A stretch of DNA of 50,293 nucleotides from Desulfuromonadales bacterium. GTDB lineage: Bacteria; Desulfobacterota; JAENJC01. Positions 4,500 to 50,090 of this stretch are shown here, piece by piece. The stretch spans positions 1 through 50,293 of the forward strand of contig CAKKSC010000041.1 in NCBI GenBank assembly GCA_919902985.1, read 5' to 3'. Position 1 is the first letter of the stretch, and each line of letters begins with the position of its first letter. The position numbers were made by a program, and so were the translations under genes. Below the pieces are notes generated by a model. It worked only from the letters and a program-made list of their open reading frames with translations. It ran no database searches and was not told the origin of the DNA.

Positions 4500-6269
4500 A
4501 TGGCAAAATCTCAACTGACTTTTCCAGACTACCTAAGCCAGGACACTGAATTTAAAAAATATGGAAGAAATGACGTAGCTATCTTCGCACTATCAATGTA
4601 TTTAGGTATTGATGAAGTAGATGAATTTGTTTCAAGCTCCTTGACCGAACATCCTAGTGATAAAGATATAGATATATTTTATATTGACCTGAGTAAGGGG
4701 CGTGCCGCTATCGTGCAGATGTATATATCAAATAAATTCGGAAATTCCGCTGCCCCATCCAAAAAGGCAAGCGATTTAAATACCGCATGCGCTTGGACTT
4801 TCTCAGCAGACGAAACGACTATTCCAAATAAAATTCGTCCTAAGGCAATAGAGCTGAGAAATGCAATTATTAACGATGAAATTGAAAGAATTGATTTTCT
4901 ATATGTACACAATTGCAAAGAATCAGTAAATGTTGAAAACGAACTCAAAACAGTCACTGATGGCGCAAGAGACAAAATCATTGCACTCACAGGAAGAAAA
5001 CCACATAAGATACAGCTCGTTTACAAGGAGATTGGAATCAAGGCAATTGAAGATTTATATAGAGCTACAGATAAAGAAATCTTAGTAGAAGATGTATTGT
5101 CTTTGCCTAAAGGTGATTTTATCAAGGAAAAAGGTGACGATTGGCAAGCAATCCAATTAACAATAGAGGGTAACTGGATAAGAGAGCTTTATTTGAATAA
5201 TGGAGATAATTTATTTAGCGCGAACTATAGAGATTACTTAGGTTCTTTTAAAAGAAAAGGCAATATAAATTATGAAATAGCGAAAACAGCCGAGAAAGAA
5301 CCTCAAAGTTTTTGGGTATATAATAATGGAATAACCGCATTAACCAATAAGATAATAACAAATAAAAAGATTCAATTTCATGGCTTGTCCATCATTAATG
5401 GAGCACAAACAACCGGTGCACTTGCCGAAGCGTCAGAAGAAAAAGCAAAATCAATAAAGGTTTCATTAAGAGTTGTAGAATGTAAGAATAAGGAAAAAGT
5501 CAATAAAATAATAAAATACAATAACACGCAAAACGAAATAAAAGCATTCGATAAACGTTCTGGCGACAAAACGCAAAAAAGGCTTGCTAAAGATTTTTTT
5601 GAGAAGTACTCCATTAATTACGTCCATAGAAGAAAACAAACAAGGGCACCTAAAAACGCCATTACAGCCCACTCCGTTGCCCCTATTTTATGTTCATTTC
5701 ACGGAGAGCCTAACATAGCACATAGACATGCAACAGAAATCTTTTTACAAGACGATATTTACAAGAAAGTTTTCAACGACATCATTAAAGTAGAACATAT
5801 ATTTTTATTAAAGAAATTGAGTACAGCCATCGATGAATACAAGAAATATTTAAATGATAGAGTAAAAGAAGGTGAGGCAACGGAAGATGACAAAGATCAA
5901 CAAGAACTTCTAAAATACTCAGCTTCTAAAACCTTTATATTTTATATAATTGGTCGGCTTGCAGAAGTTATATTGAATAGAAGAGTTACAAATCTTTATA
6001 ACTGGATGGCAAAGACTGACCTAATTTCACAAGATAATACTTCGATCGCAAAAGGATGGCGCGAAGTAATACAAACAATATTACCCCATATAGTGTTTGT
6101 CCTTAAGCAAAAAAAGGATAAGGATAATATTACTAACCCATTTTACGAAGTACCAAGAAGTTTTGAACACTCAAAAAAAGTTGGCGATGAATTAAAAGCC
6201 TTATTATCGTCCCTGTTGCCAACAATAGGAAAGCAATTTGATAATATAAGGAAACGAACAATAATTTAA
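4500..6269 (+). CDS. AIPR-domain protein (abortive infection phage resistance family)
   Basis: This 589-residue protein has the AIPR core: FWVYNNGITALTNKI (about 271-285), SIINGAQTTGALAEA (297-311), and downstream VVECKNKEKVNKIIKYNNTQ then IKAFDKRSGD. An N-terminal region (55-80, DIDIFYIDLSKGRAAIVQMY) resembles the nuclease-like D...Q pattern seen N-terminal to other AIPR domains, but the usual lysine after the glutamine appears to be methionine. Known family members are implicated in abortive infection; the biochemical activity is unclear. The ATG has a good AGGAG ribosome binding site. It lies 25 bp upstream of a methyltransferase and endonuclease pair in the same direction, suggesting one defence operon. 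The gene is distinctly more AT-rich than the housekeeping genes, consistent with horizontal transfer. Confidence 0.85.
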   Translation: MAKSQLTFPDYLSQDTEFKKYGRNDVAIFALSMYLGIDEVDEFVSSSLTEHPSDKDIDIFYIDLSKGRAAIVQMYISNKFGNSAAPSKKASDLNTACAWTFSADETTIPNKIRPKAIELRNAIINDEIERIDFLYVHNCKESVNVENELKTVTDGARDKIIALTGRKPHKIQLVYKEIGIKAIEDLYRATDKEILVEDVLSLPKGDFIKEKGDDWQAIQLTIEGNWIRELYLNNGDNLFSANYRDYLGSFKRKGNINYEIAKTAEKEPQSFWVYNNGITALTNKIITNKKIQFHGLSIINGAQTTGALAEASEEKAKSIKVSLRVVECKNKEKVNKIIKYNNTQNEIKAFDKRSGDKTQKRLAKDFFEKYSINYVHRRKQTRAPKNAITAHSVAPILCSFHGEPNIAHRHATEIFLQDDIYKKVFNDIIKVEHIFLLKKLSTAIDEYKKYLNDRVKEGEATEDDKDQQELLKYSASKTFIFYIIGRLAEVILNRRVTNLYNWMAKTDLISQDNTSIAKGWREVIQTILPHIVFVLKQKKDKDNITNPFYEVPRSFEHSKKVGDELKALLSSLLPTIGKQFDNIRKRTII

Positions 6270-6294
6270 TGTCGATTTATAAGGGGAAGGCAAT

Positions 6295-7236
6295 ATGGAA
6301 GTGTTTCAGGCATACGGTAGAACAGATGTAGCTTATAAAATGGATATACAACCGATAAAGGAAATCACAGCAAAAATCTTGTTGGGGGACTGCAAGAAAG
6401 TCTTGAAAACATTGGAGGACAACTCCGTTGATCTTATCGTAACATCCCCACCCTATGCCGACAGCAGGTCAGGCACTTACGGCGGAATAAAGCCGGATAA
6501 GTATGTCGAATGGTTCTTGCCCATAACTGCTGAACTTTTGCGCGTCTTAAAACCTTCTGGGACTTTTATACTTAACATCAAAGAAAAAGTCGTTGACGGC
6601 GAAAGACACACCTACGTAATAGAACTCATTCTGGAAATGAGGAAACAAGGGTGGTTGTGGACAGAGGAGTTTATCTGGCACAAGAAAAATTGCTATCCCG
6701 GCAAATGGCCTAATCGGTTCAGAGATTCTTGGGAAAGGCTTCTACAATTCAACAAAAGCAAGCAATTCAATATGTATCAAGAAGAGGTAATGGTTCCAGT
6801 AGGTGATTGGGCCAAAACAAGGCTTAAAAACCTAAGCGAAACCGATTTGAGACGAGATAATTCAAAGGTTGGAAGCGGTTTCGGGAAAAAGATAGCGAAC
6901 TGGATTGGCAGGGACAAGGCGTATCCGACCAACGTTCTTCGCTTGGCAACAGAGTGTGCAAATAAGAATCATAGTGCAGTGTTTCCTGAAGCCCTTCCTG
7001 AGTGGTTTGTGAAACTATTTACAAAAGAAGGTGATTGGATTTTAGATCCATTTATGGGGTCAGGGACAAGTATTAAAGTGGCTCAAAGAATGATGAGAAA
7101 CTCAATTGGCATCGAAATATTGAAAGAATATTATGATATGGCAAAGGCTGACGTTAACGAAAAAGAATATCTACTTTTAGAGGAGCAAGCCGAATATGAA
7201 CCCAATCGGAATAAACGAAGTCGTAAAGTATGTTGA
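6295..7236 (+). CDS. Beta-class amino-DNA methyltransferase (modification subunit)
   Basis: This 313-residue DNA methyltransferase has catalytic motif IV TSPPYAD (SPPY at 51-54) before the AdoMet motif I DPFMGSGT (251-258), the beta-class order. SPPY rather than DPPY favours N4-cytosine methylation but does not exclude N6-adenine. A central variable region (about 130-215) is the likely target-recognition part. The first ATG follows a GGGGAAGG ribosome binding site; an alternative start is at 6343. The 3' end overlaps the endonuclease gene by 41 bp, so expression is coupled. The protein should protect host DNA at the sites cut by the neighbouring enzyme. Confidence 0.93.
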   Translation: MEVFQAYGRTDVAYKMDIQPIKEITAKILLGDCKKVLKTLEDNSVDLIVTSPPYADSRSGTYGGIKPDKYVEWFLPITAELLRVLKPSGTFILNIKEKVVDGERHTYVIELILEMRKQGWLWTEEFIWHKKNCYPGKWPNRFRDSWERLLQFNKSKQFNMYQEEVMVPVGDWAKTRLKNLSETDLRRDNSKVGSGFGKKIANWIGRDKAYPTNVLRLATECANKNHSAVFPEALPEWFVKLFTKEGDWILDPFMGSGTSIKVAQRMMRNSIGIEILKEYYDMAKADVNEKEYLLLEEQAEYEPNRNKRSRKVC

Positions 7237-7924
7237 AGAAAATATCGGCAGTTTCCATACAAAAAGGCTGCAAAACCTTGAGCTGCTTCAGTTAAACAAG
7301 ATACTAAAAAGAAAAAATCCTTACCTATTCAAGGCCAAGAACATCTTGACTGCGCAGGATTTGGTCAAGGTACTTTTGGATGCCCATCTATCATCTCAGG
7401 AAGAAACCATCTTTGGAGAATTCCTTGAGGGACTTGCGAGGTTCATATGCGGAACAGTTTATAGCGGTAAAAAATCCTCTGCAGAGGGAATTGATTTAGA
7501 GTTCAGCAATGAGGGCATTCATTACCTTGTTTCCATAAAATCAGGACCAAACTGGGGAAACAGTGGTCAAATCAATGATATGAAAAAAGCCTTTAACAAG
7601 GCAATAAAAATTCTGAAAACCAATAATCCAAGAATTCATATAATTGCTGTCAATGGTTGTTGTTACGGAAAAACAAAAAAGATAGAAAAAGACGGTTATC
7701 AAAAACTGTGCGGACAGAGATTCTGGGAGTTTGTTTCAGGCAGTGAAAATCTATACACTGACATTGTAGAACCCTTGGGACATAAGGCGAAAGAAAAAAA
7801 TGATAAATTCTTCGAGTCATACGCTCAGATAATCAACAAGTTTACTCACCAGTTCATGAACGATTTCTGCGTTGATGGAAAGATCAACTGGGAAAAATTG
7901 GTCAAATTCAATTCCGGCAAGTAA
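7196..7924 (+). CDS. PmeII-family type II restriction endonuclease
   Basis: This 242-residue protein matches the PmeII-family endonuclease pattern as I recall it: an N-terminal VVKYVEENIGSFHTKRLQ, then RKNPYLFKAKN, AQDLVKVLLDAHLSSQEET, and the core GIDLEFSNEGIHYLVSIKSG (about 99-118), followed by PNWGNSGQI, VNGCCYG and CGQRFWEFVSG. D in GIDLEF and K in SIK are the likely metal-site residues of a PD-(D/E)XK fold. The recognition site cannot be read from sequence. The start overlaps the methyltransferase. Both genes and the AIPR gene share AT-rich composition. The protein looks full length. Confidence 0.88.
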   Translation: MNPIGINEVVKYVEENIGSFHTKRLQNLELLQLNKILKRKNPYLFKAKNILTAQDLVKVLLDAHLSSQEETIFGEFLEGLARFICGTVYSGKKSSAEGIDLEFSNEGIHYLVSIKSGPNWGNSGQINDMKKAFNKAIKILKTNNPRIHIIAVNGCCYGKTKKIEKDGYQKLCGQRFWEFVSGSENLYTDIVEPLGHKAKEKNDKFFESYAQIINKFTHQFMNDFCVDGKINWEKLVKFNSGK

Positions 7925-21083: not shown

Positions 21084-22478
21084 TTACTTCCACTTCTTCC
21101 CAAGCAGTGAAGCCAGCACATTCAATACAAAGACAGCCCCAGCAATTGCTGCAAGCATACTGCCGAGACCCTGAAGCGCCATGCCCATGGTCTTGGCTGC
21201 TGAGTCAAGGTTCTGGGCAGTTCCATAGGTCTTTCTTGGGACTCCGTGTGCTCCTGCCCAGAACATGCCCAGGACAAACAAGGCCTGGCCCGTGGTATAA
21301 ATGTAGGGTTGGTACTTGGCCATCTTTTGGCTCCAGACCTTTCTGCCGAGGAGCGGGATTATGTAATACGCAAGCCCCATGAATGCTGTTGTAACAGCCC
21401 CGATGACGCCGTGATAGTGGGATGGGACCTTCAGGTTGCTGCCACGAATAAATAAAGATACGATTCCACCAAGGGCAAACAGTACCATTGAAAGGACAAG
21501 TGATGAAAATGCGGGGTCAGCCCAGTTAAGTTTGCCCTCTTTTTTCTGCTGCATTATCCCCCTGATGATACCTATGGCAAAGAATGCGGTGGACGGGCCA
21601 AGGCCGTATTTCATAAGGTGTGTAAAGCTGTCCTTGTAAAGCTGACTGTTTATGTCAGCATGAAAGAAGATGAACGGGGCTGGAATCATGAATAGAATAT
21701 AGTAGGCAAAGGCCAATGTTGCAATCCTGTCGCTCCCGACAGGTACATTTTTTAGCGTAAGGGACGCCAGGAGCAGCCACGCAGAGACCATCCCTATGGT
21801 ATTTGCGAACTGGAGTATATGCCCACCACCCCAGAACAGACGCTCGAAGTATAGACCCGGTTCCATGGCGACCCCTGGCATAACCTCCGTTGGTATGAGT
21901 GGGTAGGCAATCCCAAAACAGATCAGCCCTATAATAACGGCAAGCCCGGCTGCCAGCATCCCAAAGGTGAGGACTGGAAGGCCCGATGACTTGTCAGCTT
22001 TAATTACGGTAAGAAAGGTATTTACTACCGTAACTCCTATGCCAACACCGACAAGGAGAAGTGCGACGTAAAATACCGGGTGGGTGAGGACAGGGACATA
22101 GTTGGCGTGTATTGGTTCACCAAGGGCAAGTAACGTGGAGACTGTCAGAAGGATCATTCCACTCACGGTAGCCGAGAACCCGGTCCAGCCAAGGATTGGG
22201 CAGAACAGCTTAGCTTTAAGATACGATACACTGCTCAACAACCACAAGACCGCCATGAATGCTAAAAACCATATGACCACTGAGAGATCTACGTGGCCTA
22301 CGAGGGCGACATAGAGAAAATCCTTACCAGGATAAAGCCCCTGAATTACCGGTGTGCGGCCTAGTGCCAGCAAGACTGCGAATATTCCAGCAAATACAAG
22401 GGTCGAGGCAGCGAATAAAAGCCAAGCATATACCAGCTTTCCTGTTTCATCATCCACTATCATATCTCTTAAATCCAT
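21084..22478 (-). CDS. Heme-copper-oxidase subunit I-like membrane protein, incomplete CuB site
   Basis: This 464-residue protein has about 12 predicted spans, the length of a catalytic heme-copper oxidase subunit. Candidate ligands: H62 in GHVDLSVVIWFLAF (low-spin heme, helix II), H220 in WGGGHILQF (CuB-type, helix VI), and H354/H356 in PSHYHGVIGA (helix X pair, high-spin and low-spin hemes). The paired CuB histidines expected in helix VII are reduced to one (FFHADIN, H273). No subunit II or cytochrome c subunit is adjacent. It resembles widespread cbb3/NOR-like orphan subunits whose reaction is unclear. Its start overlaps the CRP/FNR-type gene by one base (TGATG), so they are translationally coupled. 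Oxygen or NO reduction is possible but not assured. Confidence 0.8.
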   Translation of the reverse strand: MDLRDMIVDDETGKLVYAWLLFAASTLVFAGIFAVLLALGRTPVIQGLYPGKDFLYVALVGHVDLSVVIWFLAFMAVLWLLSSVSYLKAKLFCPILGWTGFSATVSGMILLTVSTLLALGEPIHANYVPVLTHPVFYVALLLVGVGIGVTVVNTFLTVIKADKSSGLPVLTFGMLAAGLAVIIGLICFGIAYPLIPTEVMPGVAMEPGLYFERLFWGGGHILQFANTIGMVSAWLLLASLTLKNVPVGSDRIATLAFAYYILFMIPAPFIFFHADINSQLYKDSFTHLMKYGLGPSTAFFAIGIIRGIMQQKKEGKLNWADPAFSSLVLSMVLFALGGIVSLFIRGSNLKVPSHYHGVIGAVTTAFMGLAYYIIPLLGRKVWSQKMAKYQPYIYTTGQALFVLGMFWAGAHGVPRKTYGTAQNLDSAAKTMGMALQGLGSMLAAIAGAVFVLNVLASLLGKKWK

Positions 22479-23167
22479 CAGATCTCAATCTCCTTAAGTA
22501 TGCTCTCAAGTCTCTTGACATCGAGGGTCATCTTCCCTTTGCTGTCTCTTACTATCCCTTCCTTCTTGAACCTGCTTATGACCCTTATGGTTGTCTCTAT
22601 TGTACTCCCGACCATATCCGCAATGTCCTGTCTTGTAAAATGTATGCTCAGATCCACCCCCCCGTCTACTGGAGTTCCCAGCTTCCTGGCAAGTTTAAGG
22701 AGCACCATGGCTATCCTGCCCTCCACCCTTTCTCCCCGGAGTTCCCTGGCCACATTCATGGCGCCCCTCAACTTTCTACCCAGGTCCCCTATGATCTCCA
22801 GCGCCACCGAGGGATACTTCTTCAACAGAGAGATAAAGTCCCTCCTTGATATCTTCAGGATGGTCCCATTTCCCATTCCCTGGGCAGTAGCAGGATACGG
22901 CCCACCGTCAAAGACCGCCACCTCTCCGATTACGTCGCCTGCAGACATCACTGCCATGATCATATCTCTCCCTGACGGGGAATGTTTTACCATTTTAATA
23001 TTCCCTTCTTTGACTATGCAAAGCCAGTTCGGAGGATCTCCTTCAGTCAATATGAACTCTTCCTTTTCAAATCCTTCCTCTATAAAAAGGGAGGATACTA
23101 CCGACAGGTCAGGGGGGGTTAACGATGAAAAGATGGTGGTGTTTTTTAGGAGCTGTAATTTATCCAT
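22478..23167 (-). CDS. CRP/FNR-family transcription regulator
   Basis: This 229-residue regulator has an N-terminal cyclic-nucleotide-binding-type beta roll (NWLCIVKEGNIKMVKHSPSG, GDVIGEVAVFDGGPYPATAQ) and a C-terminal winged helix (FTRQDIADMVGSTIETTIRV, recognition helix about 171-195). Only one cysteine is present, so an FNR-type [4Fe-4S] sensor is excluded; the ligand may be a heme gas sensor, nucleotide or other effector. The ETTIRVISR recognition helix fits the TGAT-N4-ATCA operator found upstream at 23237-23250. It is the first gene of an operon with the oxidase-like gene and diverges from the cytochrome b fusion gene, so it probably controls both and itself. Confidence 0.93.
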   Translation of the reverse strand: MDKLQLLKNTTIFSSLTPPDLSVVSSLFIEEGFEKEEFILTEGDPPNWLCIVKEGNIKMVKHSPSGRDMIMAVMSAGDVIGEVAVFDGGPYPATAQGMGNGTILKISRRDFISLLKKYPSVALEIIGDLGRKLRGAMNVARELRGERVEGRIAMVLLKLARKLGTPVDGGVDLSIHFTRQDIADMVGSTIETTIRVISRFKKEGIVRDSKGKMTLDVKRLESILKEIEI

Positions 23168-23337: not shown

Positions 23338-25371
23338 ATGTATCGTAGTTCGCTGGCCTTGGGCCACAAGGGTTTTCTGATCTTTGAAGACTGGCTGAAC
23401 AAGGTTTTTTCTCCGCGTTTAAATCCGATGTATTACCTTGGGGCAATTGCTTTTCTCTTTACATGGATAGTTTTTATATCAGGCCTGTACCTGATGTTCG
23501 TTTACAGTATCAGCGTGGAAAAGGCGTATGACTCACTGCAAGAGATGAACTGGTTCAATCAGCTCATGAGGAGCCTTCACCGCTATGCCTCAGACGGGGC
23601 CATGATCGCTCTTTTGGTCCATTTGGTCAGGGAATACTTTAACGACAGGTACCGCCGCTGGCGCTGGGTTGCATGGGTAACAGGGGTGGCCCTTATCCTT
23701 ATTTACTGGGGATTGGGTGTAACCGGTTACTGGATGGTGTGGGACCAGAGGGGGCAGCTCATAGCCAGGCTGTCCGCAGAACTCCTGGACTTCATCCCTA
23801 TATGGGGAGAGCCCCTTACCAGGGCATTTATAAGCAATGATGCAGTTACAAACCTACTCTTCATTGGAGTTATATTTGTTCATATCGCAGTTCCCACCAT
23901 AGCCCTGTTCCTGCTTTGGCTGCATGTCATAAGGATATCCAGGCCAGTTATAAACCCTCCAAAGGAACTGCTGATTACAATCACTGGGCTTACCGTGGTT
24001 TTATGTTTTGCCTATCCAGCTACAAGCGTTGGCAGGGCGGATTTGAATCTGTTCGCAGCCAGGTTTGGTATAGACTGGTGGTACCTTGTCCTCTACCCAT
24101 TTCTGGCCTCTTATCCCGCCTGGGGCGCCTGGGCCCTTACAATTGCGGGGACAGGCATATTGACAGCCCTCCCATGGTTCATCAAACCGGGAAACCCCGG
24201 CAAGGCGAAGGTGGTTCTTCCTAAATGTGTGGGGTGCGAACTCTGCTTCAAAGACTGCCCATACGAGGCAATAATGATGAGGAAGAGGACCGACGGCCTT
24301 CCGTACAAGGAAGAGGCCATCGTCGTTGAAACGCGATGCGCCTCCTGCGGACTTTGCGTAGGGGCCTGCGACTTCCATGCAATAGACCTCCCTGACCTGA
24401 CCGAGGAGATGATCTACAAGGAGATCCAACAACTCATGTCCTTCAAAACCACCGAAGAACCGAATATCCTGAATGTTGCATGCGGCTATGGTGTAAACAT
24501 GAAAGGTCTTATGGCCCCTGACACAAAGGCCCTTAAGGAGATGCCGAACGTCAAGGTACTGAGGCTCCCATGCGTGTCCATGCTTCAGCCTGTTATGATA
24601 GAAATAGCCATGAAATCCGGCGCTGATGGTGTATTTATCTCAGGTTGCCAGGCAAAGGACTGCCATTTCAGGGAGGGAGACAATTTCATAGAGGGGAGGC
24701 TACTTAACTCGAGACCTCCGGTTCTCAGGAAGAAGGCTGTAGATCCGACGAGGATAAGGGCTGGTTGGTTCTCTGCCATCCATTCCAGGAAATTTCTTGA
24801 AGACCTGAGAAGGTTTGCTAATGATATAAAGGAAGACAAGAAAGAGGTAAAGGTCTCCGTCCACAGGTACATCAGGGAGAGAATGACAGTAGCTGGGATC
24901 ATCTTCCTTGCCATACCAGCGGCCCTTACCCTTGTATTTTCTGATTATCCATATTCATTCTACAGACAGAAGGACTCGATGCTGATGTTCAGCTTTAAGC
25001 ACAGCGGCAAGCATATAGCGGAAGAAAAGAAGTTGACACCTGAAGAGCTTATGAAACTTCCACCCCATATGAGGGGGAGGTCAGCAAAGTCTGGAAAGAG
25101 GTACCCGGTATATGCAGAGGTGGAGATTGATGGGGAAAAAATCATATCCAACAGCTATACGGCCGGTGGATTGAAGGCCGAAGGATCGGCTTACGCATAT
25201 GAGAAGATTATTGTGACGCCAGGGATTCACAAGGTAAAGATACAAATGAGTGACACTGACTCCCGCGATCAGTTTGACTATACATATGAACAGGAGCTTG
25301 AATTCAAACCAAGCCGCCAGATATGCATTGACTTTAGTAATGCGACCAAGTCCTTCTTTATAAGGAACTGA
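23338..25371 (+). CDS. Cytochrome b / 2[4Fe-4S] ferredoxin / MvhD-like fusion protein
   Basis: This 677-residue protein is a multi-domain membrane redox protein. Residues 1-205 form a cytochrome b/b6-like four-helix unit with two H-x13-H pairs (H81/H95 and H182/H196), so two b hemes, plus VTGYWMVWDQ as in quinone-reactive cytochrome b. About 215-285 add further membrane spans. Two ferredoxin clusters follow: cysteines 297, 300, 303, 307 and 334, 337, 340, 344. Residues 376-455 resemble MvhD/FlpD, the hydrogenase/heterodisulfide reductase delta domain (cysteines 382, 412, 437, 442; GADGVFISGCQAKDCHFREG). A last membrane span (516-536) leads to a beta-rich tail. It could link cytoplasmic Hdr- or Mvh-type electron carriers to the quinone pool. 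The ATG follows AAGGAGGATT. It is divergent from a CRP/FNR-type regulator. Confidence 0.88.
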   Translation: MYRSSLALGHKGFLIFEDWLNKVFSPRLNPMYYLGAIAFLFTWIVFISGLYLMFVYSISVEKAYDSLQEMNWFNQLMRSLHRYASDGAMIALLVHLVREYFNDRYRRWRWVAWVTGVALILIYWGLGVTGYWMVWDQRGQLIARLSAELLDFIPIWGEPLTRAFISNDAVTNLLFIGVIFVHIAVPTIALFLLWLHVIRISRPVINPPKELLITITGLTVVLCFAYPATSVGRADLNLFAARFGIDWWYLVLYPFLASYPAWGAWALTIAGTGILTALPWFIKPGNPGKAKVVLPKCVGCELCFKDCPYEAIMMRKRTDGLPYKEEAIVVETRCASCGLCVGACDFHAIDLPDLTEEMIYKEIQQLMSFKTTEEPNILNVACGYGVNMKGLMAPDTKALKEMPNVKVLRLPCVSMLQPVMIEIAMKSGADGVFISGCQAKDCHFREGDNFIEGRLLNSRPPVLRKKAVDPTRIRAGWFSAIHSRKFLEDLRRFANDIKEDKKEVKVSVHRYIRERMTVAGIIFLAIPAALTLVFSDYPYSFYRQKDSMLMFSFKHSGKHIAEEKKLTPEELMKLPPHMRGRSAKSGKRYPVYAEVEIDGEKIISNSYTAGGLKAEGSAYAYEKIIVTPGIHKVKIQMSDTDSRDQFDYTYEQELEFKPSRQICIDFSNATKSFFIRN

Positions 25372-25672: not shown

Positions 25673-25816
25673 AGCATCCTCCTTTGTGACTTTATATCAT
25701 CTTAGTTAGATACTGTCAATATCTTGCCCTGATGCCAAACCCCTCCCTGCATGTTGCTGTCCGTGAAATTATCTGGTATGTTTGCGGTAGTAAATAAAAC
25801 CTTGGGGAGGTACAAA

Positions 25817-26410
25817 ATGAAAAGTCTTAAAGGAACAAAGACCCTGGATAACCTGATGAAGGCCTTTGCCGGAGAGTCACAGGCAAGGAACCGCTACACC
25901 TATTATGCATCAATTGCGAAGAAGGAAGAACTGATGCAGATAGAGTCCATATTCACAGAGACCGCTGACAACGAAAAAGAGCACGCCAAGCGGTTCTTTA
26001 AGCTTATTGTAGAGGGGATGCAGGGGAACCTCCCCGCTAACGTAAGGGTTGATGCTGAATACCCAGTGGCATACTCCACTACGGCCGAAAATCTCAGGGC
26101 AGCTGCAGCCGGAGAGAGGGAGGAGTGGGGCAAGCTTTACCCTGATTTTGCTGAGGCAGCAGATTCTGAGGGATTCCCGGAGGTTGCCGCTGCCTTTAGA
26201 AATATAGCTAAGGTTGAAATAAGACATGAGGCCCGTTATCTGAAGCTCCTGGAAAATTTAGAAAAGGGAAAGGTCTTCAAAAAAGATTCTTCTGTAAAAT
26301 GGAAGTGCAGGAACTGCGGGCTTATCCATGAAGGTACTGAGGCCCCGAAAGAATGCCCGGCCTGTCTGCATCCGCAGGGTTATTATGAGGTGTTTGTAGA
26401 GACATATTGA
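25817..26410 (+). CDS. Rubrerythrin
   Basis: Rubrerythrin reduces hydrogen peroxide in anaerobes using a di-iron site and a rubredoxin-type centre. This 197-residue protein has the ferritin-like domain with ESQARNRYTYYAS, ETADNEKEHAKRFF (E-x-x-H) and VEIRHEARYLKLL (E-x-x-H), and a C-terminal rubredoxin-like KCRNCGLIHEG...CPACLHPQGYY with two C-x2-C pairs. The ATG at 25817 follows GGGGAGGTAC; the frame is open further upstream to 25751 without a good start. It stands alone and is probably driven by its own promoter. Its presence points to an anaerobic or microaerobic lifestyle. Confidence 0.96.
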   Translation: MKSLKGTKTLDNLMKAFAGESQARNRYTYYASIAKKEELMQIESIFTETADNEKEHAKRFFKLIVEGMQGNLPANVRVDAEYPVAYSTTAENLRAAAAGEREEWGKLYPDFAEAADSEGFPEVAAAFRNIAKVEIRHEARYLKLLENLEKGKVFKKDSSVKWKCRNCGLIHEGTEAPKECPACLHPQGYYEVFVETY

Positions 26411-46046: not shown

Positions 46047-49000
46047 TTAATCACGCCCAATTGTTTTTATCGTTATACTCTTTTCATTTTCACTGTTATC
46101 AACGTTATCCACAGTCTTATAATATATGGTATGGATGCCATTGGACAGTTCACTAAGCTCGAAGAGCCCTGAGTATGTGTGCCAGTCTTTCAGATTATCA
46201 AAGCGATAGTATGTTGCCTTGACGCCTGAAAGACCGTCAGAGGCATTCAGAGTGACCTGCGAGTTCCTGGATACCAGTAAGTTGCTGCCGTCATTGTATT
46301 TCATGCTGAAATCTATCGTAGTGTAGGGAGGGATGTTGTCTATTATGACGGTGAGGGTCTTTTCTGTCTCAAGGTGTCCAATGTTATCTCTGCTCCTGTA
46401 ACCTATGGTGTGGGTCCCATCGATGGGAAGTGTAAGGGTACTGCCTGTTATCCAGGCTGAGCTGTCAGCCTTGTACTCAGTTACTTTTACTTCAGGATTT
46501 TTATCAGTGGTACTCAAGGTGTATTTAGTAGTACCGGTAACCCAGGCTGAAATATCTATCCTGTAATCGGTTTCTTTTACACCGGAAAGGTTGTCCATGG
46601 CGCTCAAATAGAACTCCGTCTTGCTTGTGGCATATATAGTCCCCCCAGCCTTATATTTGAGATCTTTACTGGCGATTCCGGTCACAGGGGGAGTATTATC
46701 AACTGTCATTGAGATGATTTTCTCAGTCTCAACATTACCTACATTATCGACACTTCTGTAGGCTATTTTATGGTTTCCTTCGCTGTTTATCCTGAAGGTG
46801 GATGCAGGTAGCCACTGGCCGTTATCAACCCGGTATTCTGTAATCTTAACACCGGAGAGGTTGTCTTCCGCGCTAAGGGAAAAGGTGGTTTCACTGGTAA
46901 TGTAACTGATATTTTTAACTGAGTTGTATATGGGATCACTAATATTTATGCTGCTTGATGGTGTCGTATTGTCAACAATTATTGACAGGGTTTTCTCAAT
47001 CTCCAGATTCCCGAGGTTGTCAACGGACCTGTATCCGATTGTCTGTTTCCCGTCAGGAAGCGATTTTAAGTTGAAGGCAGCTTCGTATACCGTCCATACG
47101 CCACCATTGATGCGGTATTGAGTCTGTTTTATCCCAGAAAGATTATCAGAGACATTTAAGATGAACTCCGTCTTTCCTGGAACGAATATAGCTCCCGCTA
47201 CATCATGTCTGGGTGATCCGGGCGCTATGGTGGTGACAGGGGGGGAATTGTCGACTGTTACTGATAATATCCTGGTAATCTCAAAATTCCCAAGATTGTC
47301 GCTGTTGCCAGACTCTATCAGATAGCTCCCCCCAGAAGATATTTTGAATGGGGCGTTGTGCAGCCATTTGCCGCTATCCAGGCGGTATTCAGATTTCTTC
47401 ACCCCGCAAAGGTCGTCCGTGACATTCAAGGTAAGGCTGGATTGGCTGGTTATATAGTTTACACCATCGGCAGATTTGTAAAAAGGCATACCAATATTGA
47501 TTTTGGCCAGTGGTGGGGTATTGTCAATCACTATCATCATCAACTTCTCATTCTCCAGATTTCCCAGGTTATCTGAAGATCTGTATCCGATAGAATGCTT
47601 GCCGTCGGTCAGAGACGCAAGGTCAATTAAGGCATTGAAAGCTGTCCACTCTCCATTGTCGATACGATACTCGGACTTTTGCACCCCGGCTAAGTTGTCA
47701 GTGGAGTTCAGGCTGACTGCTGTAATTCCGGTGATGAATACGGCGCTCCCAGCCTCATATCTGGGTTTTTCAGCATTTATTGCAGTTACCGGCGGCGTAT
47801 TGTCAATAACTATAGACAATGATTGCGCTGATTCCAGGTTCCCTGTGTTGTCTGTGCTCCTATAAGCGATGACGTGCTTCCCCTCCGTGGGGATACTGAA
47901 AGGCACGGTGTAATTTCTCCAGGCGCCGCCATCTATCCGGTATTCCGTCTCTGCCGCTCCCGAGAGATTATCCGAGGCAGAAATAGCAAAAGAGGTCTTG
48001 CCTGTTGCCAGCAGAATCTCATCCTGGTTCTTAAAATTAGGGCTTCCAATGGAAATCCTGCTCACCGGAGGAGAGTTGTCTACGATCAAGGTTGTCGACC
48101 TGCCTTTTTCCAGATTCCCCATTTGATCCCTGCTTCTGTATTCGACCAGATGTTCCCCTTCAGCCTGGATCTTTAAAGGCGCATAATGCGTCCAGGGGCC
48201 GCTGTCTATTCTGTATTCGCTTGCCGCCACTTCTGATAAAGCATCCATTGCAGCAAGGGTTATTGCAGTGCCCCCGGTAATGAAGATTTTATTTTCAGAA
48301 CTGGAAAACCTAGGGCTTCCCATGGAAATGGCAGTTACCGGCGCCGTATTGTCTACAACTACATCAAGAGACCTTGCTGTCTCAGTATTTCCAAGCCTGT
48401 CAATACTCCTATACTCTATAATCTGGCGCCCTTCATTGGCGATATTGAAGGATGGTCCAGGATGCCACTGACCTTTGTTCACTCTATATTCAGTCTTCGA
48501 TACCCCTGAAATATTATCGGATGCGTCCATGGTAAACTCAGTATCCCGACTTACTAACAAAGAGACTCCCTTAAGACTTGATTTAGGCTCTCCAGCATGG
48601 ATCTGTGTGACCGGTGCGATGTTGTCAACGGTCACATCCGCCTCTTTTGCAGCCTCTATGTTGCCGGCATTGTCTACGCTTCTGTAATGGATTTTATGCG
48701 GTCCCTCTCTGCTGCCAAGGGAGATGCTTTTCTTATAAATGTTCCATGAAGAAATATCATCCAGCCCGTATTCGATTCTATTTATACCTGATGGAGCCGT
48801 GCCTGAATCTGATGCAGCCAAAACGACCTGAGTAGAACCGGTGATTGATAGCTTTCCATTATCTGTAATCATTGGCAGGCCTATTTGCAGAGTGGTCACC
48901 GGAAATGTCTTATCTATATAAAAGTGACGTCTCAATGACGACTTGTTACCCGCCATGTCAACCGCATCAACTTTCAACTCCATACGTCCTTCTTCAGTTA

Positions 49001-50090
49001 TATCAGAGCCGGTATAGATGCTGCCGTTCAGGGTAACATTCTTTTCCTTAGGATTTGCGTCCTTAACCGTAATCACAGGGAGGATATCCGAGTTGTAAAA
49101 CCTGCCCTCTTCAACTCCTGCGAATGACATGACAGGAGAGGTCTTATCCACCACAAAACTCAAGCTCTTTGAAGACCGATTCCCGGAAAGGTCAGAAGCG
49201 TCAACTTTTAGGGTATAGCTCCCATCTATGGAGATTGGGATGGCGGAGTAAGAGGAGCCGTTAAGGGTAATCCTCTTTTCCTTAAGGTTTGCGTCCTTAA
49301 CCGTAATCACAGGGAGGATATCCGAGTTGTAAAACCTGCCCTCTTCAACTCCTGCGAATGACATGACAGGAGAGGTCTTATCCACCACAAAACTCAAGCT
49401 CTTTGAAGACCGATTCCCGGAAAGGTCAGAAGCGTCAACTTTTAGGGTATAGCTCCCATCTATGGAGATTGGGATGGCGGAGTAAGAGGAGCCGTTAAGG
49501 GTAATCCTCTTTTCCTTAAGGTTTGCGTCCTTAACCGTAATCACAGGGAGGATATCCGAGTTGTAAAACCTGCCCTCTTCAACTCCTGTGAATGATATGA
49601 CAGGAGAGGTCTTATCCACCACAAAACTCAAACTCTTTGAAGACCGATTACCGGAAAGGTCAACAGCGTCGACTTTTAGGGTATAGTTCCCATCTCTGGT
49701 TACAGGAGCTCCGAGATAGGCGGAACCATTTAGCATGACCTCCTTGCTTGAAAGTTGCTCATCAAACACTTTTACGACAGGATTGATATCTGTGGCATAG
49801 TAAGCTCTATCATGGACCCCGCTTACCGTTATTTCAGGAGGAACCTTGTCTGGAGGACCTGCCTCTACTGTTGCACCCTTTCCAGCATCATTGGCTGCCA
49901 TTGCATCATGTGAGGCTGAGATCAGAAGGCAAGAAACAGCCAGGATAATTGCAAGCCCTATTTTTGGAGTTTCTTGCAAAAGTCTCAAATTACCCTTCAA
50001 CACGCTCAGGGTAAACGGGATGTGAGAAGTGGTCATTGATTTTTTCACGAACCTCTTTATCATGCTGTTGATATTAGTAATATTAAACAT
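46047..50090 (-). CDS. Large exported protein with Ig-like and OmpL47-type repeats
   Basis: This 1347-residue protein has a long N-terminal extension and a signal-peptide-like segment (IGLAIILAVSCLLISASHDA, cleavage near AMA). Four Ig-like repeats of about 78 residues follow (VDKTSPVISFTGVEEGRFYN, ITVKDANLKEKRITLNGSSY, VDASDLSGNRSSKSLSFVVD). Then come ten OmpL47-type repeats of about 90 residues with a recurrent SGVKxTEYRxDxGxW ... YRSxDNxGNxE ... VDNTPPVT pattern. It is probably a cell-surface adhesin-like or matrix protein; no C-terminal anchor was identified. The long N-terminus could mean the true start is a later ATG (for example 50033); no clear ribosome binding site decides this. Convergent with the GGDEF gene. 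Confidence 0.82.
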   Translation of the reverse strand: MFNITNINSMIKRFVKKSMTTSHIPFTLSVLKGNLRLLQETPKIGLAIILAVSCLLISASHDAMAANDAGKGATVEAGPPDKVPPEITVSGVHDRAYYATDINPVVKVFDEQLSSKEVMLNGSAYLGAPVTRDGNYTLKVDAVDLSGNRSSKSLSFVVDKTSPVISFTGVEEGRFYNSDILPVITVKDANLKEKRITLNGSSYSAIPISIDGSYTLKVDASDLSGNRSSKSLSFVVDKTSPVMSFAGVEEGRFYNSDILPVITVKDANLKEKRITLNGSSYSAIPISIDGSYTLKVDASDLSGNRSSKSLSFVVDKTSPVMSFAGVEEGRFYNSDILPVITVKDANPKEKNVTLNGSIYTGSDITEEGRMELKVDAVDMAGNKSSLRRHFYIDKTFPVTTLQIGLPMITDNGKLSITGSTQVVLAASDSGTAPSGINRIEYGLDDISSWNIYKKSISLGSREGPHKIHYRSVDNAGNIEAAKEADVTVDNIAPVTQIHAGEPKSSLKGVSLLVSRDTEFTMDASDNISGVSKTEYRVNKGQWHPGPSFNIANEGRQIIEYRSIDRLGNTETARSLDVVVDNTAPVTAISMGSPRFSSSENKIFITGGTAITLAAMDALSEVAASEYRIDSGPWTHYAPLKIQAEGEHLVEYRSRDQMGNLEKGRSTTLIVDNSPPVSRISIGSPNFKNQDEILLATGKTSFAISASDNLSGAAETEYRIDGGAWRNYTVPFSIPTEGKHVIAYRSTDNTGNLESAQSLSIVIDNTPPVTAINAEKPRYEAGSAVFITGITAVSLNSTDNLAGVQKSEYRIDNGEWTAFNALIDLASLTDGKHSIGYRSSDNLGNLENEKLMMIVIDNTPPLAKINIGMPFYKSADGVNYITSQSSLTLNVTDDLCGVKKSEYRLDSGKWLHNAPFKISSGGSYLIESGNSDNLGNFEITRILSVTVDNSPPVTTIAPGSPRHDVAGAIFVPGKTEFILNVSDNLSGIKQTQYRINGGVWTVYEAAFNLKSLPDGKQTIGYRSVDNLGNLEIEKTLSIIVDNTTPSSSINISDPIYNSVKNISYITSETTFSLSAEDNLSGVKITEYRVDNGQWLPASTFRINSEGNHKIAYRSVDNVGNVETEKIISMTVDNTPPVTGIASKDLKYKAGGTIYATSKTEFYLSAMDNLSGVKETDYRIDISAWVTGTTKYTLSTTDKNPEVKVTEYKADSSAWITGSTLTLPIDGTHTIGYRSRDNIGHLETEKTLTVIIDNIPPYTTIDFSMKYNDGSNLLVSRNSQVTLNASDGLSGVKATYYRFDNLKDWHTYSGLFELSELSNGIHTIYYKTVDNVDNSENEKSITIKTIGRD
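49057..49758. repeat. Three 234-bp near-identical tandem repeats in the exported protein gene
   Basis: The period is 234 bp (78 codons) with units starting at 49057, 49291 and 49525. The first two copies are almost identical and the third diverges after about 49680. They encode the Ig-like repeats. Such identity implies recent duplication or gene conversion, and makes the true copy number sensitive to assembly. Confidence 0.9.

Follow-up and report, generated by a model that had tools for sequence, protein, structure and literature searches.

A membrane cytochrome b fused to an HdrA2-type ferredoxin-FlpD unit is a probable dedicated partner of the nitric oxide reductase eNOR

Introduction

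The cytochrome b of the bc1 complex and the cytochrome b6/subunit IV pair of the b6f complex carry two bis-His hemes in helices A to D, followed by an E/F region with the PEWY motif. A tandem of a 2[4Fe-4S] ferredoxin and an FlpD domain relates the C-terminus of HdrA2 (Methanosarcina acetivorans type) and MvhD/FlpD proteins. CcoG/FixG and NosR are membrane proteins in which cytosolic 2[4Fe-4S] clusters serve a copper enzyme on the outside.

Among heme-copper enzymes, a ba3-a1 operon lacking the cross-linked tyrosine and including an SCO gene has been reported (PMC6431628); NO reductase activity was later reported for its product, which received the new name eNOR (PMC8879329); a further paper also bears on this activity (PMC11388526). 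Glutamine at the position of the cross-linked tyrosine in subunit I is the mark of this enzyme (PMC8756737). Published descriptions of eNOR cover two subunits, I and II, and mention SCO a single time.

Here we analyse a reading frame in a window of 50,293 nucleotides from a Desulfuromonadales bacterium (contig CAKKSC010000041.1), which joins such modules in a single chain (hereafter, the fusion). The fusion resembles b6f and bc1 cytochromes in its two bis-His hemes, its E/F region with a putative PEWY-like motif and its fold; unlike them, it has Asp for Glu in that motif, carries an additional C-terminal ferredoxin-FlpD unit and a putative periplasmic tail, and belongs to a gene cluster without a Rieske or c1/f partner. 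It shares the tandem ferredoxin-FlpD arrangement of HdrA2 and MvhD, but is anchored by cytochrome b and lacks the FAD part and any HdrBC or hydrogenase partner. CcoG and NosR offer a parallel in their layout, but have neither a diheme cytochrome b nor an FlpD domain. In eNOR operons whose subunit I bears the glutamine mark, the fusion gene is a regular cluster member, whereas thermophile eNOR loci lack it.

Domain architecture of the fusion protein

The fusion is a protein of 677 amino acids, with known full-length relatives, encoded on the forward strand (23338-25371) by a reading frame free of internal stops; the domain coordinates that follow lie on the same strand. Its N-terminal part (residues 22-200, 23401-23937) matches Pfam Cytochrome_B (PF00033) above the cut-off (1.6e-18), and a sequence comparison with the PDB aligned residues 15-206 with cytochrome b6. 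The heme-ligand pairs H81/H95 and H182/H196 each enclose 13 residues. Helices E and F and their intervening loop follow (residues 209-281, 23962-24180), and next to them a ferredoxin domain with two [4Fe-4S] motifs (residues 296-347, 24223-24378; Fer4_7, 6.4e-8, above the cut-off). The FlpD/MvhD domain spans residues 374-499 (24457-24834): Pfam FlpD (PF02662) matches residues 395-499 with 7.8e-20 and 71.6 bits (cut-off 22.3), the PDB comparison matched residues 374-498 to MvhD, and residues 374-499 align with the solved MvhD structure 5odc_D (2.1e-15). In this alignment C382, C412, C437 and C442 coincide with the MvhD cysteines, as putative ligands of a [2Fe-2S] cluster. The NCBIfam HdrA2 profile (NF040770) matches residues 288-499 with 4.9e-36, and by profile comparison the nearest match to the tandem ferredoxin-FlpD unit is the C-terminus of HdrA2.

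The structure model and loop charges place a last transmembrane helix at residues 517-535 (24886-24942), followed by a beta-sandwich tail (residues 536-677, 24943-25368) that is probably periplasmic. The AlphaFold2 model, built from an alignment of 60 sequences, has a mean pLDDT of 91.4 and a pTM of 0.88; it contains helices E and F, and a helix at 518-535 that leads into a beta domain. In separate Foldseek matches, the model aligned with bc1 cytochrome b (about 285-313 columns) and with MvhD (TMt 0.73). Loop charges and homology to cytochrome b point to a cytoplasmic N-terminus and ferredoxin-FlpD unit and a periplasmic tail. For the tail, neither a fold search nor a known-domain search gave a significant match. 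The Pfam, PDB and AlphaFold2/Foldseek results hence bear out the domain identities and order proposed in the first-pass annotation, which had read from the sequence the two H-x13-H pairs of a diheme cytochrome b, two [4Fe-4S] clusters, an MvhD/FlpD-like domain with four cysteines, a further membrane span and a beta-rich tail.

Profile matches were also obtained with two b-type cytochromes of a selenite/tellurite operon, ExtP (fusion residues 31-202, 1.5e-30) and ExtQ (residues 217-296 of the Thioalkalivibrio relative), but these scores fall far below the equivalog cut-offs and the gene context is different.

Distribution of the fusion

Full-length relatives occur in the same genus (83% identity) and in another family of the phylum (54% identity), and the core formed by cytochrome b, ferredoxin and FlpD is uninterrupted in all 60 aligned relatives, drawn from several phyla, each of which matches PF02662. 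A tblastn search over genome contigs located a relative in 546 candidate stretches. For the best 80 of these 546 loci, the source records bear the names Deltaproteobacteria, Nitrospinae/Nitrospirae, Gamma- and Alphaproteobacteria, Verrucomicrobia, Myxococcota and others; a Roseomonas strain and Thioalkalivibrio denitrificans are among them. Core and tail are adjacent genes on a finished Defluviimonas plasmid, where the core is annotated merely as a "cytochrome b N-terminal domain-containing protein". The fusion is a real, widespread membrane protein.

The first-pass annotation had allowed that the putative FlpD segment might fail to match FlpD profiles and that the fusion might be an assembly artefact of this genome. 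The segment scores 71.6 bits, as given above, and the full-length relatives, the 546 tblastn stretches and the finished plasmid rule out an artefact. A viral origin was rejected, since no viral relatives were found. Two nearby copies of the fusion or its core were observed in L038, L044, L047, L049, L062, L087 and L115; in L044, L047 and L049 the second copy adjoins a GGGH-type heme-copper homologue (see below) and another SCO gene.

Conserved residues and the C-terminal tail

The four heme histidines, the eight ferredoxin cysteines and the FlpD cysteines C382, C412 and C437 are invariant in the 60 aligned sequences. The remaining FlpD cysteine, C442, is conserved in 52 of them and lost in the other 8 (Verrucomicrobiota sequences and L113), which suggests that the FlpD cluster may be dispensable, whereas the hemes and ferredoxin clusters would not be. 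Asp246 (codon 24073-24075) is likewise invariant (60/60), in the context [ILFM]-D-W-[FWY]-Y. This motif aligned opposite the PEWY of canonical cytochrome b in 52 of the 60 rows. The scores of this match were weak (mean z about 3 in a shuffle test, used instead of an uninformative hhalign comparison of the E/F segment with one canonical cytochrome b). With this PEWY-like site retained in the E/F part and Asp246 unvarying, a link between the fusion and the quinone pool is plausible.

The tail presents a cysteine pair that is complete in 33 of 46 tails and absent from the other 13, with no tail keeping a single cysteine. This joint retention or loss suggests a disulfide; the pair is absent from the lineage of the window. 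In many relatives the tail is a separate gene, and its state requires 4 changes on the tree, at least 3 of them on well-supported branches. That joining or splitting has recurred independently suggests a joint action of tail and core. The three split tails that were compared with FixG_C gave no match at E up to 1.

Gene neighbourhood of the fusion

The neighbourhoods of 80 related loci, selected solely by similarity to the fusion, were analysed by ORF clustering and six-frame HMM search; 53 of these loci have at least 4 kb upstream. The analysis outlined a co-directional cluster of constant order, encoding a CuA subunit II, a heme-copper subunit I, in some cases CyoE, SCO, the fusion and, where present, a separate tail and a hemerythrin; the order is rearranged in a few loci (e.g. 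L034 and L082). Among the 53 loci, eNOR subunit I was identified in 51, SCO in 51 and the CuA-type subunit II in 49. SCO lies immediately upstream of the fusion in most loci, and CyoE is a frequent neighbour.

Subunit I at these loci resembles B-type oxidases, with the cross-linked Tyr replaced by Gln (HPVVY opposite HASQQ), and subunit II carries the CuA motif C-x3-C-x3-H-x2-M. The Gln mark and the CuA partner assign these heme-copper genes to the eNOR type, with predicted NO reductase activity. In some loci the fusion is also accompanied by NirS (PF02239, 3.7e-122 for L063) or by NnrS-like genes. No Rieske gene, no conserved cytosolic electron-donor gene and no recognisable hdr, mvh or flx gene was found among the recurrent neighbours in the 80 loci. 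A protein of 60-76 amino acids encoded directly before eNOR subunit II (L120 6851-7081, L133 7771-7953) is perhaps a single-span small subunit, like subunit IIa of ba3 oxidase.

Genomic context in the window organism

In the window, the fusion is preceded on the reverse strand by a divergent gene for a Crp/Fnr-type regulator (22478-23167; PF00027, PF13545) and by a single-subunit heme-copper oxidase homologue (21084-22478, reverse strand; PF00115, 4.2e-25), a type present in 25 of the 53 loci. This homologue reads GGGHILQ where the Tyr or Gln motif would stand. In a MAFFT alignment with 26 relatives, the heme histidines and the His of helix VI are conserved, but residues other than His stand at the HH pair of CuB ligands, one relative excepted. 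It has no adjoining CuA partner and recurs next to eNOR loci; it is possibly a heme-only or altered NO-active enzyme. A rubrerythrin gene (25751-26410, forward strand; NF045767, above the cut-off) follows the fusion, as it does in the genome of the same genus. Elsewhere, the window encodes a probably exported protein of 1347 amino acids made of repeated Ig-like units (46047-50090, reverse strand) and three successive genes that by eye resemble a restriction-modification set, comprising an AIPR-like protein, a DNA methyltransferase and a possible endonuclease (4500-7924, forward strand).

The eNOR subunits and SCO of this genome are encoded on another contig, C11, where subunit II is missed by the PF00116 profile and was recognised by reading the operon. 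Just upstream of that operon lies a gene fusing a protoglobin domain to a PsiE membrane domain (L120 5585-6478), a possible NO or O2 sensor. A PF00355 search of the genome returned no Rieske match, and its other cytochrome b is of the PEWY type with a c-heme-like motif. The genome search found neither a second FlpD protein nor a NiFe hydrogenase large subunit, and the only CCG-domain protein is a single frame of 458 amino acids with two CCG domains; stand-alone HdrB proteins are smaller.

Co-occurrence of the fusion and eNOR

Across 297 genomes surveyed in the phylum, 10 encode the fusion (E up to 1e-50) and 8 encode eNOR subunit I (E up to 1e-70); every one of these 8 is among the 10 (hypergeometric 3e-14, the genomes not being independent). 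The fusion was detected without eNOR in G001 (86% complete) and G172 (99% complete); in the latter the sole match to COX1 is partial and lies at the start of a contig. Conversely, the eNOR genes of Thermus thermophilus and Thermomicrobium plasmids present the Gln and also the CuA motif, but no SCO gene and no fusion was found near them; on one Thermus plasmid the eNOR genes lie near a nitrite reductase. These loci indicate that eNOR can work without the fusion, which is an accessory of one large eNOR subfamily and not an obligatory subunit.

Discussion

The almost constant presence of the fusion in the eNOR gene cluster argues that it is probably a dedicated partner of eNOR, acting in electron transfer or assembly, rather than a connection to the metabolism of hydrogen or heterodisulfide. 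That it is more specifically a transmembrane redox partner dedicated to a large subfamily of eNOR enzymes, with electron input to eNOR as the favoured role, we consider about an even proposition. We count towards it the 51 of 53 loci, the 8 of 8 genomes, the eNOR operon on C11, the lack of a Rieske protein, the Gln mark, the invariant ligands and Asp246, the repeated fusion and splitting of the tail and the NirS and NnrS-like neighbours. Against it we count the Thermus and Thermomicrobium loci without the fusion, SCO and CyoE, which fit assembly equally well, the lack of a conserved cytosolic donor, the loss of C442 in one clade, genome G172 and the weak PEWY likeness.

Under electron input, the two-heme cytochrome b would offer a Qo-like quinol pocket on the periplasmic side and hold the HdrA2-type ferredoxin-FlpD unit at its cytoplasmic end, and the beta domain that ends the protein would lie on the periplasmic side, where SCO and the CuA subunit act. 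Electrons from quinol, from a cytosolic Fe-S donor or from both would reach the periplasmic side by way of hemes bH and bL and go on to eNOR, by a route that would replace the one through Rieske and cytochrome c1. If the cytosolic arm is used, the lack of a recurring donor gene in the cluster makes a general carrier, such as ferredoxin, the likely donor. A bifurcating version, in which quinol oxidised at Asp246 would send one electron to the high-potential copper centres of eNOR in the periplasm and the second, via bL and bH, to the low-potential ferredoxin-FlpD unit, a Rieske-less complex thereby using NO reduction to drive the reduction of a cytosolic carrier, seems to us very unlikely.

The main rival arises because SCO and CyoE are recurrent neighbours: the fusion could be an assembly reductase that carries electrons from the cytoplasm or from quinol to the periplasm, reducing copper or SCO thiols while CuA and CuB are built, as CcoG does for cbb3 oxidase. 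SCO directly upstream in most loci, CyoE often nearby, the joint absence of SCO and fusion from the Thermus eNOR loci and a likeness to CcoG, with its cytosolic 2[4Fe-4S] clusters and C-terminal periplasmic beta domain, make this a possible role, yet a doubtful one, since a cytochrome b with two hemes and a conserved quinol-type site exceeds the known needs of an assembly reductase and the split tails share no sequence match with FixG_C. Service to the GGGH-type homologue in place of eNOR would accord with the position of that gene, which directly adjoins the fusion region in the window and stands beside the second fusion copy in L044, L047 and L049; its presence in 25 of 53 loci, against 51 for eNOR, renders this very unlikely. 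The first-pass annotation had proposed that tethering an MvhD-type domain to cytochrome b could couple Hdr/Mvh-type flow, from H2 or heterodisulfide, to the quinone pool. The tethering itself stands and the quinone link is plausible, and the ferredoxin-FlpD unit is indeed homologous to HdrA2 and MvhD; the coupling, however, is rejected on genome content and neighbourhoods, as highly improbable, given a genome without NiFe hydrogenase or a second FlpD protein and with a single CCG protein, and given that the expected co-occurrence with hdrABC or mvh genes did not appear among the recurrent neighbours in the 80 loci.

The fusion is a combination of known modules and is associated with a known enzyme, eNOR; a search of the eNOR literature other than Murali et al. 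2024 found no description of the gene or of this combination. eNOR is a recently recognised and widespread NO reductase that yields N2O, a greenhouse gas, and published descriptions treat it as a two-subunit enzyme. A regular additional partner, shared by many bacterial lineages and equipped with its own complete transmembrane redox chain, would revise the view of how electrons are delivered, or copper loaded, to eNOR, and the fusion gene would serve as a marker for one branch of this enzyme. Furthermore, the union of cytochrome b with an HdrA2-type ferredoxin-FlpD unit represents a way to join cytosolic Fe-S chemistry to cytochrome b.
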